From Paludibacteraceae bacterium (GTDB taxonomy: Bacteria > Bacteroidota > Bacteroidia > Bacteroidales > Paludibacteraceae): 34,099 bases of DNA. Within the stretch, counting starts at the first letter, position 1. Each line of letters begins with the position of its first letter. A model generated the notes under the pieces. The model had not been told where the DNA came from and made no database searches. It saw nothing but the letters and a program-made list of their open reading frames with translations. Where the stretch lies: positions 17,629-51,727 of the forward strand of contig CAJOFV010000016.1 of NCBI GenBank assembly GCA_905233925.1, in the 5' to 3' direction. Shown here piece after piece: positions 3,976 through 15,467 of this stretch. A program made the translations under genes and the position numbers.

Positions 3976-4210
3976 CTTTCTTCGTTGATTACCCCGGCAT
4001 CCTATGCCGCCCGTTCACCCGTTCATCCGTTCACCCGCTCACCCGTTCATCCGTTAAACGTTAAACTTTCAACTTTTGTCCAGCTCGCGGCGCTAACTCG
4101 CCGCGTTCTTCGTCCTTTTTGCGCGTATGATTTACGCGCAGAGTCCACTATGCAAATCCCGCTTAACTCCGCTAAAGCATTGGCAAAAACAAAAAAAAAT
4201 GGCACAAATA

Positions 4211-4242
4211 TTTGCATGTGTCATTTTTTTGTAGTAATTTTG
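4211..4242 (+). promoter_or_regulatory. Bacteroidota-type promoter TTTG-N20-TAATTTTG
   Basis: TTTG 4211-4214, TAATTTTG 4235-4242, 20-nt spacer. Confidence 0.75.
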
Positions 4243-4535
4243 CAGCCGTAAACGTACGCCGGAGGGAAATGTCTCTCATTTTTAGGGTAGGTTTACGGAC
4301 ATATTAATAGCGTTTATTGACGCTTGTTTTGGTTTTACGAAATCTGGTAAATTTCTATTCCCCCAAGACAAGATAGTGCAATAAGCGTTCTCGTGGGTAT
4401 GTATTATCCGTTCGCGCCCTATTAGGCGGGAGGGGTGACATATCGGGCGTGAACGTTATTGTTTATTCTTGGGAAACGGTTTACCAGAACCTCGTAAAGG
4501 AGAATGAGCGTGGATAACATTCACGCTTTTGTTTT
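4243..4535 (+). ncRNA. probable independently transcribed structured RNA (~290 nt)
   Basis: Preceded by a promoter and ended by hairpin AGCGTG/CACGCT plus T-rich tail. Complementary segments: CCGTAAAC/GTTTACGG, AGCGT/ACGCT, TTTACGA..TCTGGTAAA/TTTACCAGA..TCGTAAA, CCCAAGA/TCTTGGG, CAATAA/TTATTG, CGTTCGCGCCC/GGGCGTGAACG. Confidence 0.75.
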
Positions 4536-4536
4536 T
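4507..4536 (+). terminator. intrinsic terminator of the structured RNA
   Basis: AGCGTG-gataacatt-CACGCT followed by TTTGTTTTT. Confidence 0.7.
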
Positions 4537-4631
4537 ATCTTTACGGACTTTAGAGCCCCAATTGACTTTATAAAACAAACAACAATATTAACCCTTTAAA
4601 AGTGCGCACGATACTTATAGTGTATTTGCTT

Positions 4632-7600
4632 ATGAGAAAAATCATTTTTACAATTCTCCTTACCATCGCAGCAAGTGTAGGAAAACTATTCGCTTATGAT
4701 GCCCAAATCGGTAATTTGTACTACAATCTCAGCACCATTTCCCAAACAGCAACGGTAACTTATAAATCCCTAACCGTATATTATCCTAGTAAATTTGTAT
4801 ATAACGAAAATTGGAATATTACTACTGTCGACATTCCAGCCTCGGTAACCTATGGCGGTACAACCTACACCGTCACTTCGATCGGTAGTAATGCTTTCTC
4901 TGGTTGCACCAGTTTGACCTCTGTTACCATTCCAAACTCCATCACTTCGATTGGGAAGGAAGCTTTCTCTGGTTGCTCTAGTTTGCCTGAGATAGGTAAT
5001 ATCTGTTATGCGGATAAATGGATTGTGGAAGTAACTGATAAAAACTTATCGACTTATACGATTGAAGAAGGGACTCGGGGTATTTGCAATAATGCGTTCG
5101 CTTATTGCAAATACATGACCACAATCACTATTCCCAACTCCGTTACTTCGATTGGCAATGACGCTTTCTATGGTTGCTCTAGTTTGCCCATTGTTGATAA
5201 TATCCGCTATGCAGACACATATTTAGTAAAGCTTGCAGATGAATCGTTATCTACATGTATAATCAAAGAAGGTACAAAATTTATTGGCAATAACGCTTTC
5301 TATGGTTGCACCAGCTTGACCTCTGTTACCATTCCCAACTCCGTAACTTTGATTGGTGAGCAAGCTTTTAATGGATGTACTGGTCTGACTTCTATTGCCA
5401 TTGGTAACTCCGTCACTTCGATTGGTTATATGGCTTTTTATGGTTGCGCCGGTTTGACTTCTGTTACTATTCCTAACTCTGTCACTTCGATTGGTGAGCA
5501 AGCTTTCTATGGTTGCACAAGCTTGACTTCCGTTGCCATTGGTAACTCCGTCACTTTGATTGGTGAGCGAGCTTTTAGAGGGTGTACCGGTTTGGTGTCT
5601 GTCACATTGGATGCAAATGAGATTACTAGCAAAAATTATTCATATGGTGGCGACAATGGTATTTCCAATATTTTTGGAACGCAAGTGCAAGAATATATTT
5701 TGGGAAACTCCATTACTTCAATTGGCAGTTATGCTTTCTCTGCTTGCACCGGTTTGACTTCTGTCACCATTGGTAACTCCGTCACTTCAATTGGCAGTTA
5801 TGCTTTCACGGGTAGCTCTAGCCTAAATTCTATACTATGGAATGCCAATGAATATGAGGTATTAGATTACGATCAAGGAGGAAGTAGTAAAGAGTTTGGT
5901 CCCTTTTATGATATATGTTCTAACATCACTTCCTTTACTATTGGAAATGAAGTTGAATCGCTTCCTGATTATTTATGCTACGGCATGAATAACTTGACGG
6001 ATATCAATTTACCAAATAGTGTGAAGTCTATAGGTGATAAATGTTTTTATGATTGTGTTGGCTTACGTAGAGTGCAATTGAGTAACCAATTAGAGCATAT
6101 TGGAGCATCCGCTTTTGAAAACTGCACACGCCTAAATACTTTGAACTTACCCAATACATTGACATACATAGGAATAGATGCCTTTAAAAACACACCATTC
6201 TATTCTTCTACCGGTGAATGGGAAAATGGTATGCGCTACATTGGTACGGTATTGGTTGAGGTAAATGAAGCAGAACTTCCATATTATGATTGTACTATAA
6301 GAGAAGGAACAACAGCAATTATTGATAGAGCATTTGCATATTGTCATATAGGTTCAATTACCATACCGGAAGGAGTCACGGCTATTCCAAATTATGCTTT
6401 TGAAGGATGTTATTATCTACATACTATTAAAATTCCTAATTCCGTCACTTCGATTGGCAGTGGGGCCTTCTCTGATTGCACTGGTTTGACTTCTGTTACG
6501 ATTCCTAACTTTGTCACTTCGATTGGCAGTGGGGCTTTCTCTGATTGCACTGGTTTGACTTCTGTTACGATTCCTAACTCTGTCACTTCGATTGGCAATT
6601 ATGCTTTTAGGGATTGCACAGGTTTGACTTCTATTACTATTCCTAACTCTGTCACTTCAATTGGTAGTGGGGCTTTCTCTGGTTGCACCGGTTTGACCTC
6701 TATAACCATTCCCAACTCCGTCACTTCGATTGGCGAGAAAGCTTTTAATGGATGTACCGGTTTGACTTCTGTCACCATTGGTAACTCAGTCACTTCAATT
6801 GGTAGTAATGCTTTTGAAGACTGTACAAGCTTACAAGAAGTTCATATTAGCGATATTGCTGCTTGGTGTTCTATTAAATTCAATGATAATCCTTTGTATT
6901 ACACTAAACATTTATATTTGAATGGAAAAGAAATTACTGGAGATTTGGTTATTCCGGAAGGTGTCACTTCAATTGGCAATGGAGCTTTCTACTATTGTGA
7001 CAAATTGACATCTGTTACTATTCCTAACACCGTCATCTCAATAGGAGAAAAAGCATTTTACAGTTGTCACAATTTGACATCACTAACCATTCCGGATTTG
7101 GTGAAGGCAATAGGTAGTGAGGCCTTTTGTAATTGCGGAATAAAATCTATTGTTATCGGAAATTCCGTTTCTAAAATTGGTGAATACGCTTTTAGACGGT
7201 GTTCTTTAACCTCTGTAGTATGGAATGCAAAAAAATGTGATGCCTATCATTATCATTATTCTGAATATATTCCAGAAGCCGGATATGATTGGGAGCATGA
7301 TGAATATGGACCTTTCTACTCATCAAATCATTATATTACATCATTTACATTGGGTAATGAGGTTAGAGAAATTCCCGATGGACTTTGCTATGGGATGTAT
7401 AATTTAACTTCTGTCAACATTCCTAATAATGTTGAGAAAATAGGCAAAATGGCATTCTCCGGTTGCGAAGCCCTTAAACAAATTACTATTGGCCATAATG
7501 TCAAGGAGATAAGCGACAATGCATTTGATGAATGCCCGAATGTAATGACAATCTATTCCTATCTGGAAACGCCGCCTGCAATCAATAATACTGTCTTTGC

Positions 7601-8840
7601 CGGATTTGGTACCTATAAAGGTGTGGATTTGTATGTTCCCATCGGCTGCAAAGCCAATTATGAAGCAATGGATATTTGGAAAGAGTTCTATATTATTGAG
7701 GGCTTGCCAGACATTATTGATAACAATCTCTATTATATGTTGGACGAGGTAAACCAGACGGCAACACTTATCACGTCTTCTCTTGCGGAGTTAAAGCCGG
7801 TTGTAAATGGTGAATTGGTCATTCCGGAAACCGTAGTAAGCAACGGTAAGACCTTTACGGTAACCGCTATCGGCGATAATGTATTCAAAGATAATTCCAC
7901 CATTAGCACGGTTGTTATACCTTCGACCGTCACGCAGATTGGCGATTCGGCTTTCTATGGTTCAAGTTTGACGTCTGTTGTTATCGGTGGAACTAAAAAG
8001 CCTGTAGAATCGGTGGCTGTTCGTCGTAACATAATGGTGGAAGAATGTTACGAAATTGGAGATTATGCCTTTGCTAACTGTAAAGGATTGACAAAGGTAA
8101 AATTCCTTGACTGCGTAAGTTCTATCGGCAAAGGAGCATTCAAAGGTTGCTCCAACCTGAAGGATATCTATTCCAAGATGCAAACCCCGCCCGCTATTGA
8201 TGAGACTGTATTTGCTGATTGTGGCGCTTTGAAAGATATTAACTTGTATGTTCCGACCGGCATGGAATCTACATACAAAGGAATGGCTGTTTGGAAAGAA
8301 TTCTTCTTCAAAGTGTTTGTTAATACTTATATTGTCACTTTCGTAGATTGGAACGGCAATGTAATCAGCACACAAGAAGTTGAAGAAGGAGCATCTGCTA
8401 TTGCTCCTGCCGACCCGGAACGGAATGGCTATCACTTTACAGGATGGGATATTTCCTTTGCCAATGTAACGGCCGATATAATCGTTACTGCCCAATATGC
8501 GGAAATTGTCATGTGGACACTTGTTGCCAAGCCATCCGATGAGTATATGGGGTATGTTACAGGTGGCGGCATCTACGAAGAAGGTGAAGTTGTGACCATT
8601 ACGGCAATCCCGTATGAAGGTTATATCTTCGTTCAATGGTCAGACGGCAACACGGATGCCCAACGGACGGTAACGGTTACTTCCGATGCCACCTATACCG
8701 CTGTATTTGCAGAGCAACCTCAAGCAATTGAGCAAATCGAAATGGGAAATCCGAAAAATGCTAAATTGCTGATAGAAGGGCACCTCTACATCCTTCGCGA
8801 CGGCAAAATATACACCGCTACCGGTGCAGAAATTCGTTAG
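4632..8840 (+). CDS. BspA-like leucine-rich repeat surface protein (TpLRR/LRR_5 repeats, InlB/List-Bact-type repeat near the C-terminus)
   Basis: Signal peptide MRKIIFTILLTIAASVGKLFA; many copies of SVTIPNSVTSIGxxAFxGCTGLT; VTFVDWNGNVISTQEVEEGASAIAPADPERNGYHFTGWD; tail EGHLYILRDGKIYTATGAEIR. Confidence 0.93.
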   Translation: MRKIIFTILLTIAASVGKLFAYDAQIGNLYYNLSTISQTATVTYKSLTVYYPSKFVYNENWNITTVDIPASVTYGGTTYTVTSIGSNAFSGCTSLTSVTIPNSITSIGKEAFSGCSSLPEIGNICYADKWIVEVTDKNLSTYTIEEGTRGICNNAFAYCKYMTTITIPNSVTSIGNDAFYGCSSLPIVDNIRYADTYLVKLADESLSTCIIKEGTKFIGNNAFYGCTSLTSVTIPNSVTLIGEQAFNGCTGLTSIAIGNSVTSIGYMAFYGCAGLTSVTIPNSVTSIGEQAFYGCTSLTSVAIGNSVTLIGERAFRGCTGLVSVTLDANEITSKNYSYGGDNGISNIFGTQVQEYILGNSITSIGSYAFSACTGLTSVTIGNSVTSIGSYAFTGSSSLNSILWNANEYEVLDYDQGGSSKEFGPFYDICSNITSFTIGNEVESLPDYLCYGMNNLTDINLPNSVKSIGDKCFYDCVGLRRVQLSNQLEHIGASAFENCTRLNTLNLPNTLTYIGIDAFKNTPFYSSTGEWENGMRYIGTVLVEVNEAELPYYDCTIREGTTAIIDRAFAYCHIGSITIPEGVTAIPNYAFEGCYYLHTIKIPNSVTSIGSGAFSDCTGLTSVTIPNFVTSIGSGAFSDCTGLTSVTIPNSVTSIGNYAFRDCTGLTSITIPNSVTSIGSGAFSGCTGLTSITIPNSVTSIGEKAFNGCTGLTSVTIGNSVTSIGSNAFEDCTSLQEVHISDIAAWCSIKFNDNPLYYTKHLYLNGKEITGDLVIPEGVTSIGNGAFYYCDKLTSVTIPNTVISIGEKAFYSCHNLTSLTIPDLVKAIGSEAFCNCGIKSIVIGNSVSKIGEYAFRRCSLTSVVWNAKKCDAYHYHYSEYIPEAGYDWEHDEYGPFYSSNHYITSFTLGNEVREIPDGLCYGMYNLTSVNIPNNVEKIGKMAFSGCEALKQITIGHNVKEISDNAFDECPNVMTIYSYLETPPAINNTVFAGFGTYKGVDLYVPIGCKANYEAMDIWKEFYIIEGLPDIIDNNLYYMLDEVNQTATLITSSLAELKPVVNGELVIPETVVSNGKTFTVTAIGDNVFKDNSTISTVVIPSTVTQIGDSAFYGSSLTSVVIGGTKKPVESVAVRRNIMVEECYEIGDYAFANCKGLTKVKFLDCVSSIGKGAFKGCSNLKDIYSKMQTPPAIDETVFADCGALKDINLYVPTGMESTYKGMAVWKEFFFKVFVNTYIVTFVDWNGNVISTQEVEEGASAIAPADPERNGYHFTGWDISFANVTADIIVTAQYAEIVMWTLVAKPSDEYMGYVTGGGIYEEGEVVTITAIPYEGYIFVQWSDGNTDAQRTVTVTSDATYTAVFAEQPQAIEQIEMGNPKNAKLLIEGHLYILRDGKIYTATGAEIR

Positions 8841-9472: not shown

Positions 9473-9504
9473 TTTGCACGAATCATTTTTTTTTTGTACT
9501 TTTG
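9473..9504 (+). promoter_or_regulatory. Bacteroidota-type promoter TTTG-N20-TACTTTTG for the mlaE-led gene train
   Basis: TTTG 9473-9476, TACTTTTG 9497-9504, 44 nt before the likely mlaE start. Confidence 0.8.
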
Positions 9505-9547
9505 CGCGCTTTTAGAATGTGTCATGTTATTTTTGGGGTCATTTGCA

Positions 9548-10288
9548 ATGAAACTGATAGCACATATAGGTGAATATTTTCTGCTGATGGGCAGGGCATT
9601 CCGTTTGCCTGACCGTCAGCGGATGTTCTGGCGGCAGTTGTCGCTTGAGATGGAGAAACAAGGTTTGCAGTCGATATTGCTGACGCTGATAGTGAGCGTG
9701 TTCATGGGTGCGATTATGACGATGCAAACGAAGTTGAACACAAGCAACCCTTTGCTGCCGGTATATACGACCGGTCTTGTGACGCGCGACTGCATTCTGT
9801 TGGAGTTCTCAAGCACGATTCTCTGTTTGCTTCTGGCGGGCAAAGTGGGTAGTAACATCGCCTCGGAGATAGGCACGATGCGCATCACGGAGCAGATTGA
9901 TGCGATGGAGATAATGGGCGTGAACAGCGCGAACTATCTCATTCTGCCCAAGGTGATTGCTTTCATGGTGATGATGCCGTTGCTCGTGACGCTGTCAATG
10001 GGCATCGGTCTTGTCGGCGGCTATATCATCAGCGACGTGACAGACATCATGACCACAGCGGAATACCTCATCGGTATCCAGTATGCGTTTGTGCCGTTCT
10101 ATGTGTGGTACTCATTCATCAAGACAGTGGTGTTTGCGTTCGTGATTGCAAGCATGTCAAGCTACTACGGCTACTACGCATACGGTGGTGCGTTGGAAGT
10201 GGGTAAAGCCAGTACGAAAGCCGTCGTGAACAGTAGCATTATTATTCTGTTGCTGGACGTGGCGCTGACAAACCTTATGTTGAATTAG
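9548..10288 (+). CDS. mlaE: MlaE-family ABC transporter permease
   Basis: LEFSSTILCLLLAGKVGSNIASEIGTMRITEQIDAMEIMGVNSANYLILPKVIAF is MlaE/YrbE signature; start moved to MKLIAHIGEYF. Confidence 0.92.
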   Translation: MKLIAHIGEYFLLMGRAFRLPDRQRMFWRQLSLEMEKQGLQSILLTLIVSVFMGAIMTMQTKLNTSNPLLPVYTTGLVTRDCILLEFSSTILCLLLAGKVGSNIASEIGTMRITEQIDAMEIMGVNSANYLILPKVIAFMVMMPLLVTLSMGIGLVGGYIISDVTDIMTTAEYLIGIQYAFVPFYVWYSFIKTVVFAFVIASMSSYYGYYAYGGALEVGKASTKAVVNSSIIILLLDVALTNLMLN

Positions 10289-11393: not shown

Positions 11394-13019
11394 ATGAAGA
11401 AACTGATGTTGATAATGTGCGGTATTGCAATGGTTACTGTACTGAACGCCAAACCCGCATTCCGCGGACCTATTAACCGTGTTCAACCGGACGGAAGTAC
11501 CATCACCGTCTATATGCACGGCGATGAGTTCTTCCACTGGGAAACCAACGATAAAGGCGAATGGCTGACCCGCGATGAAAACGGCAAATACGTAAAGACC
11601 GCCGCTCTGACGGACGAGCAGATTACAGCACAACGCAAAGCATCACGCTACTACATTCCACAGAGCTTGCAACAGGCACAGCCGACCAATCTCGCGCCAC
11701 GCGGACTGATTATTCTGGTGAATTTCAAGGACGTACAGTTCCAAAGCACGAACACGCTGGATATAATGCGCGACATGCACAACGGGGACAATTATACGTA
11801 TAGTTACGAGTACAACGACCCTTACGAGGGCACGCATGTAAGCGTTACGGCACAAGGGTCTGCTAAAAAGTACTTTGTAGACCAGTCCGGCGGTCGCTAT
11901 CAGCCGTACTTTGACGTAGTTGGACCTTATACGGTATCACAAGACATGGCATACTACGGCAAAAACGACAGTTACGGAAATGACAAGAACCCGCACGTCA
12001 TGGTGAAAGAAGCCTGCGAACTGGCGCACAATGACGGTGTGAACTTCGCACAATACGACAATGACAAGAACGGATATGTGGATTTTGTGTATGTCATTTA
12101 TGCGGGCTACGGCGAAGCAGACGGCGGTGCTGCCAATACAATCTGGCCGCACAGTTGGAACATTTACACCAAAGGAGGTATCTCGCTGAAATTGGACGGC
12201 AAACAGGTGGATTTATATGCGTGCAGCAGTGAATTAAACTACTACTCCAAGAAACGCGCAGGCATTGCCACATTCTGCCATGAATTCAGCCACGTGCTCG
12301 GTCTGCCCGACCTCTATTCCACCAACGGAGCCAGCCATAAGACCAGCGGTTCGTGGGATGTCATGGATTATGGTCCTTACAATAACGACGGCAATACTCC
12401 ACCCTCTTACTCCGGCTACGAGCGTCTTTTCTTCGGTTGGACAACGGGACGTGTGCCAAACGCACCGCTGAACATGACCATCAAAGAATTGCAAGAGTTC
12501 AATGATGTATGTGTGATTACATCAACCGGCAGTTTCAACGACCAAGGCAATGACCCAAATCCGACAGAGTTTTATATTATCGAGAACCGTCAGCAAAAAG
12601 GTTGGGATCAATATCTGCCCGGACACGGTATGATACTTACAAAGGTCAAATATTCTTACGATTACTGGACAAACAACAAGGTAAATAACAACAGCAGCGA
12701 CATGCGCGTAGATATCATTGAAGCTGACGGGCTAAAACCCAGTTACAATCAAAACAAGCCGGACAATGGCTATATGGGCAAACCGGGAGATGCATTCCCT
12801 GCCGGCGCAACGTCATACTCCGGCATCACGGATTATCCGATTACGGATATTACGGAAACGGACGGAGTGATTCACTTCAAAGTGAAAGGTGGCGGTCCGG
12901 AAGGCATAGAGACGCTAAATACGGATGAGAAGAACGCCGCACGCAAAGTATTTGAAAACGGACACGTACTAATCATTCGCGACGGAGTAAAATACTCGCT
13001 GTTGGGAGAAAAACTTTAG
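11394..13019 (+). CDS. M6 family (immune inhibitor A-like) secreted metalloprotease
   Basis: Signal peptide; HEFSHVLGLPDLYS (HExxHxxGxxD); GSWDVMDYGPY; tail ENGHVLIIRDGVKYSLLGEKL. Confidence 0.92.
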   Translation: MKKLMLIMCGIAMVTVLNAKPAFRGPINRVQPDGSTITVYMHGDEFFHWETNDKGEWLTRDENGKYVKTAALTDEQITAQRKASRYYIPQSLQQAQPTNLAPRGLIILVNFKDVQFQSTNTLDIMRDMHNGDNYTYSYEYNDPYEGTHVSVTAQGSAKKYFVDQSGGRYQPYFDVVGPYTVSQDMAYYGKNDSYGNDKNPHVMVKEACELAHNDGVNFAQYDNDKNGYVDFVYVIYAGYGEADGGAANTIWPHSWNIYTKGGISLKLDGKQVDLYACSSELNYYSKKRAGIATFCHEFSHVLGLPDLYSTNGASHKTSGSWDVMDYGPYNNDGNTPPSYSGYERLFFGWTTGRVPNAPLNMTIKELQEFNDVCVITSTGSFNDQGNDPNPTEFYIIENRQQKGWDQYLPGHGMILTKVKYSYDYWTNNKVNNNSSDMRVDIIEADGLKPSYNQNKPDNGYMGKPGDAFPAGATSYSGITDYPITDITETDGVIHFKVKGGGPEGIETLNTDEKNAARKVFENGHVLIIRDGVKYSLLGEKL

Positions 13020-13784: not shown

Positions 13785-14515
13785 GAACTGAACATTTGGT
13801 CAAGAAATACGGCAAACGAACGGTCGTAAACGACGTGAGCATATATCTTGAGCAAGGCGAGATAGTTGGTTTGTTGGGACCTAACGGCGCCGGAAAGACA
13901 ACGACGTTCTATATGACCGTCGGACTGATTACATCGAATAACGGCAAGATTTTCCTCAATGACCAGGATATTACCGGTTTGCCGATGTACAAGCGCGCAC
14001 AAATGGGTATCGGTTACCTGCCTCAGGAAGCAAGCGTGTTCCGCAAACTTTCCGTAGAAGACAACATCCGCGCGGTGCTTGAGATGACGACGTTCACAAA
14101 AGAATACCAGCAGCAGAAACTGGAACAACTGATTCAGGAATTCAATCTCAACCACGTGCGGCATAACTTGGGCGACCGGCTTTCCGGTGGTGAACGCCGT
14201 CGTACGGAGATTGCACGTTGTCTGGCCATCGAACCGAAGTTCGTGATGTTGGACGAACCGTTTGCGGGTGTGGATCCGATTGCCGTACAGGAGATTCAAG
14301 ACGTTGTATGGCGGCTGAAGAGCAAAAATATCGGCATTCTCATTACCGACCACAATGTGGATGAAACGCTGATGATTACCGACCGCGCATATTTGCTGTT
14401 TGAGGGAAAAATCCTCTTCCACGGCACTCCGGAAGAATTGGCGGCAAACCCGATTGTACGGAAAAACTACCTCGGTCGTGACTTTGAGTTGAAGAAAAAG
14501 ACACATGTGGAATAA
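13772..14515 (+). CDS. lptB: LPS export ABC transporter ATPase LptB
   Basis: [94 protein letters not shown]. Confidence 0.96.
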
Positions 14516-15467
14516 ATCCGCAATATGGCTGTTCGTGCTGCTGTTCGCAGCGTGTACGAAGAAAACGGAAGTAGAACTCTCCGTTGTTCCTTGTGCACCA
14601 ATGCCGGAAGGACGGGCGAGTGCCTGTGCTACCGCCTGCGACGGCAAAGCATACATCTTCGGCGGACGGGATGCAGATGGGACATACCGCAATGAGTTGT
14701 GGGAATATGATGCGGCAAAAAACACATGGAGCGTCATAAAAACCCCTTTGAAAGCCCGCGTTCACGCGTCTATCGCAACGTACGGCAAAGCGATATATCT
14801 CGGGCTCGGTTTTACGGGACAAGTGTATGTGGACAGTTGCTATATGCGCGACTGGTGGCGCTATACGCCGGCAACAGGCGAATGGAAAAAACTTAAAAAG
14901 TTTGACAGCCCGCGCACAATCGGTAATACAACGTACGTTGTCGGCAACAGAATATACGCCATTTACGGCGCAGACGGCTGTTTCTCACGGCATATTCATT
15001 ATTACGATATTGACCAGGACGAATGGACGAATGAGGAGGAAAGTCACTTACGCGCGAAATCAGGATTCGGCGGCGTTGGTGCACAAGTGCAGGGACGTTG
15101 TTTCTATGGACTCGGAAACAATACGGACAACCTCACCCAATGGTATGAAGCCGACCTGCCTGCCGATAAATGGACAAAGAAAAGGGATATCCCGAGTAAA
15201 GGAAGAACATTAGGTGCGTGTTGCGCTACAAACGAGTATATCTATGTTTTCGGAGGACGTTGCTTCAGAGGCGAATATACCGAAGGCGAGGTTTTTCCGG
15301 ACTACTACCGCTATGACCCGAGTAATGACACTTGGGCATATTGCGGACGGATGCCTTGTGGCAGTGCGGAAAATCTTGTGGCGTTCACTATCAACGGCAA
15401 AGCATATTTCGGGCTCGGTGAGAACACGGACGGCAAACTGATAAAACAACTCTACCGCATTGAATAG
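14505..15467 (+). CDS. kelch-repeat lipoprotein
   Basis: Lipobox LLFAAC; repeated kelch modules ([43 protein letters not shown]...[11 protein letters not shown]). Confidence 0.85.

Follow-up and report, generated by a model that had tools for sequence, protein, structure and literature searches.

A multicopy structured RNA of Bacteroidota that is probably a cis-acting 5' leader of exported-protein genes

The segment at positions 4243-4550 of the window (the whole stretch of 34,099 nucleotides that was analysed, from contig CAJOFV010000016.1 of a Paludibacteraceae bacterium) raises the question of which RNA it encodes and what this RNA does for the large gene that follows. The original prediction described a structured RNA with its own promoter, and the promoter, the GC hairpin (4506-4528) with its T tract (T-rich to 4537) and the helices listed were all found in place (Table 1). 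The fold of 4243-4550 reached -112.8 kcal/mol compared with -79.2 +/- 5.2 kcal/mol for shuffled sequences (z = -6.4), none of the 100 dinucleotide shuffles of the segment folding as well. Support for a conserved structured RNA that has its own promoter is strong. In addition, the terminator arms are able to pair with the 5' strand 4307-4334, whereby the element is closed as one rod, and the terminator 3' arm ACGCTTT (4523-4529) doubles as the 3' strand of the closing stem P1.

Table 1. Coordinates of the element and its downstream gene in the window, followed by two motifs found next to other copies (locus names in the coordinates or remarks column)
Feature	Coordinates	Strand	Remarks
Bacteroidota-type promoter, TTTG (4211-4214)-N20-TAATTTTG (4235-4242)	4211-4242	+	predicted RNA start ~4247
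Variable 5' module, hairpin CCGTAAAC/GTTTACGG and GACAT box	4246-4302	+	
P1 5' strand, ATAGCGT	4307-4313	+	pairs with 4523-4529; 93% of cells paired, 45 diverse copies
P2 5' strand	4334-4338	+	pairs with 4494-4498; 92.9% paired
Hairpin KL1 (GAAA/TTTC)	4339-4355	+	loop L1 CTGGTAA 4344-4350
P3/P4 5' strands	4362-4390	+	conserved CAAGA and CGTTC
Apical domain	4396-4444	+	closed by GGTATG 4396-4401/CATATC 4439-4444; tip variable
P4/P3 3' strands	4451-4473	+	GAACG, TCTTGGG
Hairpin KL2 (GGT/ACC)	4478-4491	+	loop L2 TTACCAG 4481-4487, complementary to L1
P2 3' strand	4494-4498	+	
Terminator hairpin 4506-4515/4519-4528 and T tract 4527-4537	4506-4537	+	dG -14.1 kcal/mol
Exported BspA-type leucine-rich-repeat protein gene	4632-8840	+	PF13306, E = 9e-224
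DUF805b	L110 4291-4325, L112 4285-4319, L121 4243-4277, L075 4293-4327, others		
AGTTGCGCCCGACACRAATTAAGGG motif			L025, L037, L011, L020, L021, L048, L049, L059, L109, L166

The cmscan of the window against Rfam 15 gave no match at the gathering threshold, and the matches seen at E <= 10 were of chance level. None of these was 6S RNA or the Bacteroidales-1 motif, the two candidates that had been named for the segment, and the short-form loci described below gave no family match apart from one tRNA. A divergent member of either family, which the rod-like fold and the promoter/terminator layout could bring to mind, has a practically negligible probability given these scans and the many copies per genome. 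No prior description was found in the main texts of the open-access literature covered. A partial earlier description may stand in the supplementary tables of motif surveys, for example the one in which palindromic Bacteroidetes candidates were reported (PMC8040213), and structured 5' regions without Rfam matches have been reported in Flavobacterium (PMC9723704).

A DNA search within the genus recovered the core (~4297-4535) from dozens of genomes, as a rule at several scattered sites, and the promoter with the 5' hairpin was shared with other loci. A covariance model (R1) built from 29 sequences, whose E-values are rough and which was applied to genomes that are mostly metagenome-assembled, found matches in 169/178 genomes of the genus, 122/200 genomes of the family Paludibacteraceae (25 of 33 genera) and 41/198 genomes of the order. 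An exhaustive search of six genomes yielded 5 matches in the window's own genome (77% complete) and 19, 20, 14, 9 and 14 in the others, a few of the weakest being opposite-strand echoes of the palindromic rod; diverged copies thus amount to up to ~20 per genome, and the related copies number in the hundreds overall. The named records holding a conserved 24-mer belong to Paludibacteraceae and other uncultured Bacteroidales of rumen and gut. In more distant families, comprising dozens of other Bacteroidales families, a short form of ~175 nt with the same plan was found, and the model built from it (R2) matched 68/198 genomes of the order and ~20 genomes of other Bacteroidia families. Applied to the window, R2 picks out the element at the exact R1 coordinates (E = 4e-7), so the long and short forms are tied together; in the window's own genome it detects additional short forms. 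The element is also present in other Bacteroidia families, in genomes that consist of a single contig. The plasmids and viral contigs searched contained no match, so nothing points to an origin in phages or plasmids. At one locus (L076, 4001-4246 and 4469-4706), two different family members stand in tandem ahead of the same gene.

The conservation of the fold was assessed in a purely sequence-based alignment of 45 diverse copies. Over 39 proposed pairs, 89.5% of cells were standard pairs compared with 75.7% in shuffles, double-change cells numbered 264 versus 66 +/- 9, and pairing fell to 37-49% in the control in which the strands were slid by 1-3 columns. The predicted pairings are therefore kept among homologs by compensatory changes. 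Changes on both sides were seen in 5/5 pairs of P2, in 3/4 pairs of the KL1 stem (91% paired) and in 4/6 pairs of helix 7, GGTATG/CATATC (94.1% paired), and an independent alignment of the short forms showed them in 17/26 predicted pairs. The P1 5' strand lies within a highly conserved stretch, (G)GCGTTTATTGACGCTTGTTTTGG. Among the helices first proposed, CCCAAGA/TCTTGGG, CAATAA/TTATTG and AGCGT/ACGCT have comparative support, and so does the long helix 4334-4351/4480-4498, which now reads as P2 plus a loop-loop helix L1:L2. On the other hand, CGTTCGCGCCC/GGGCGTGAACG (4409-4419/4445-4455) turned out not to be a conserved pairing, the pairs conserved in its place being CGTTC 4386-4390/GAACG 4451-4455 and the helix 7 strands. 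The 5' helix at 4246-4298 does exist, while it lies outside the conserved core (~4300-4538), as part of the variable 5' module. A second TTTACGG (4540-4546), proposed as a competing strand, was dropped, no conservation of it being seen among the aligned copies.

G-U pairs outnumber A-C mismatches by 193 to 26, and the short forms have 43 versus 1. For an RNA made from the reverse strand, the excess would lie with A-C; it is consequently the plus-strand RNA that is under selection. This asymmetry bears on a reading at the DNA level, in which the element would be a MITE, a long palindrome or a bidirectional terminator; its many copies, its long inverted-repeat character and the weak matching of the opposite strand by the model are in line with such a reading, but orientation to the downstream gene is fixed rather than random (143/150 copies) and highly diverged copies keep their pairing through compensatory change, which together with the G-U excess renders it very improbable.

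The L1:L2 pairing is the strongest part of the fold, with 94.9% of cells paired and up to 5 pair types per column. Approximately 35 distinct complementary 6-bp loop pairs were parsed, for example TCTGGT/ACCAGA, TCCGGA/TCCGGA, CTTCGC/GCGAAG, CCTGAG/CTCAGG and TGTGGT/ACCACA; as this parsing selects for complementarity, it shows variety, and the unbiased test is the column-based count. Loops of different copies were complementary in only 31/1190 cross pairs. The closing triplets of KL2 were GGT/ACC in 102, GGC/GCC in 29 and GGG/CCC in 7 of 138 parsed copies. Because the small stems of KL1 and KL2 are themselves conserved, a loop-loop (kissing) arrangement is likely, the data being compatible with a continuous rod too.

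Promoter and 5' module are common to other copies in the same genome. A strict TTTG-N16-24-TANNTTTG was found upstream of 67/152 copies compared with 0.4% of shuffles, and its -7 box ends at a median of 56 nt ahead of the start of the model match. The GACAT box was found in 101/156 copies. In the window promoter region (4186-4245), an inverted repeat AAAAAATGGCAC...GTGTCATTTTTT surrounds the -33 box; stretches like this region recur at dozens of places in the genome, which suggests a common operator.

The start codon of the gene at 4632 stands 94 nt past the core and its product begins with a signal-peptide-like sequence. In the family at large, 143/150 copies are followed by an open reading frame on their own strand, at a median gap of 84 nt from the core, compared with 99/141 co-oriented genes on the upstream side (binomial p = 7.5e-15). 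With genes called as the longest open reading frame and signal peptides by a simple heuristic rule, signal-peptide-like N-termini were found in 97/143 downstream genes (68%), 11/99 upstream same-strand genes and 162/640 other open reading frames. The 93 downstream proteins include 24 with BspA leucine-rich repeats, 10 with InlB B-repeats and 6 that match Cys-Xaa-Xaa-Xaa radical-SAM target peptides; the remainder are mostly exported proteins without assigned function, and a small number are of other kinds, among them an MBOAT protein and a type I restriction subunit. No common pathway was found among these genes, export being their shared feature. Small SRRxFFKKA-type proteins follow the element in more than one genus (L092, L114, L116, L127, L128 and L136); the gene that comes next at L092 and L114 resembles that of a radical SAM protein. 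Further along in the window, beyond the BspA-type gene, come an MlaE permease (9494-10285), an M6-type peptidase (11394-13016) and a Kelch-repeat protein (14505-15464).

In many copies, a DUF805b RNA (RF02914) sits directly between the element and the start codon, and in one genome (G093) 7 of the 9 above-cutoff DUF805b sites lie 24-134 nt downstream of a copy. The two form a composite 5' untranslated region, and DUF805b may accordingly belong to a single larger unit of regulation. Just ahead of the start codon, 10 copies carry another short conserved motif, AGTTGCGCCCGACACRAATTAAGGG, possibly a small pseudoknot; it had no Rfam match in L025 and L037, the two of these loci scanned that are without a DUF805b match.

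The same-strand position, the enrichment of exported proteins, the promoter and the proximity of DUF805b together indicate a 5' leader. We therefore consider it likely that the segment is the cis-acting leader of the BspA-type gene at 4632 and one copy of a cis-regulatory RNA family of Bacteroidota, which is absent from Rfam and probably new. The RNA running from promoter to terminator that was originally implied would instead be a stand-alone, trans-acting small RNA, comparable to the multicopy FopS of Bacteroides. Its own promoter and terminator, its many copies and the FopS precedent for paralogous small RNA families in the phylum (PMC11697453) are consistent with such a role; we nevertheless judge it quite unlikely, since nearly all copies are same-strand leaders (95% co-orientation) close ahead of preferentially exported proteins, some gaps (e.g. 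26 nt) are too short for a second promoter, a cis element (DUF805b) occupies the same untranslated region, the loops are complementary within a copy and rarely between copies, and FopS RNAs measure only ~65-70 nt (PMC11697453).

As a leader, the element would be expected to control the gene behind it, and the 3' strand of P1 suggests how. The conserved ACGCTTTT constitutes this strand and, within the local terminator, also the T tract with the 3' arm. A local hairpin reaching the U tract was found in 92/146 copies, and at least 6 T in 10 at the T tract in 143/146. As the same strand serves both structures, a closed core should block the terminator, and this sharing suggests an attenuator or a riboswitch. 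Transcription would start from the promoter ending at 4242, and the core would fold into the closing stem P1, the stem P2, the hairpins KL1 and KL2 with their loops paired and a central P3-P4 arm. A closed core would then prevent the terminator and leave the gene on, while an open core would allow the terminator and turn it off. Within one set of exported-protein genes, this balance would be tipped by whatever the RNA senses, be it a ligand, a protein or a physiological state. At equilibrium, closed P1 is more stable than the local terminator, with a median difference of 12 kcal/mol (110 copies; -90.4 versus -83.0 in the window), so that switching would have to be kinetic/co-transcriptional or factor-driven.

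Some of the copies that lack a local terminator have a downstream anti-element, and some have neither. Where the local terminator is missing, the P1 3' strand could pair just ahead of the start codon, which would make translational control possible. The anti-element covaries between copies (CAGTCC/GGACTG, AAGTCCCA/TGGGACTT, GGTTCCA/TGGAACC), the pairings of the strand with the region ahead of the start codon including GGTTCC/GGAACC and CAGTTCCCA/TGGGAGTTG. It beats swapped partners in a minority, 12% of copies falling in the top 5%. Translational control is thereby hinted at in no more than a minority of copies. On the swapped-partner test, a downstream anti-element common to all copies was rejected, the element being real in a subset (~top 12-20%) and not general.

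A leader of this kind could also act constitutively, escorting RNA polymerase by processive antitermination (put- or EAR-like) or protecting the mRNAs of surface proteins by stabilising them, with no switching at all. The diverse set of genes lacking a common pathway, the strong preference for the P1-closed rod at equilibrium and a local terminator that is not universal all speak for this explanation. Against it, the near-universal T tract and the alternative pairings of the 3' strand suggest a decision point, and we regard a non-switching leader as rather unlikely. The broader proposal that the leaders form a phylum-wide class of signal-sensing RNA switches, coordinating surface and exported proteins and carrying copy-specific kissing loops, is put forward as a tentative possibility. 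If the leader is a switch, the surface of uncultured bacteria of gut and rumen would have a global control point that can be tested. Given the presence of the element in single-contig Bacteroidia genomes, cultured species may offer access to it. With a conserved fold and loops that vary yet always remain complementary, the element lends itself readily to structural and genetic tests.

To our knowledge, few cis-regulatory RNAs are known in Bacteroidota. The present family is ordinary in kind, being a structured leader, and stands out by its size, its number of copies, the behaviour of its loops and the class of genes behind it: it is large, ancient (class-level), present in up to ~20 copies per genome and placed ahead of BspA-type and other surface proteins. 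Its plan resembles that of the kissing-loop riboswitches with attenuation (purine, lysine), in which P1 competes with a terminator, as it may in the leader, and two hairpin loops pair; in contrast to these, the leader loops are fully complementary and vary by copy, and the genes concerned form a diverse exported-protein regulon. Regulated genes outside one pathway are unusual for a metabolite riboswitch. DUF805b RNA (RF02914, clan CL00115; Rfam type Cis-reg) is, like the leader, multicopy and found in the same 5' untranslated regions, where it adjoins the leader directly on the 3' side, but it is a separate module of 35 nt that occurs without the leader too. Bacteroidales-1 (RF01693), listed as a separate motif (PMC2864571), shares the order and, according to the original prediction, the promoter/terminator layout, whereas the leader has no match to it at E <= 10. 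Flavo-1 (RF01705) is also a multicopy structured motif of Bacteroidota; the leader loci lack an Rfam match, and Flavo-1, unlike the leader, is reported to lie in either orientation relative to transcripts (PMC9723704). Finally, the FopS/GibS small RNA family is multicopy in Bacteroidota and tied to envelope-protein mRNAs, as is the leader, and differs from it in being trans-acting and of far smaller size (PMC11697453).
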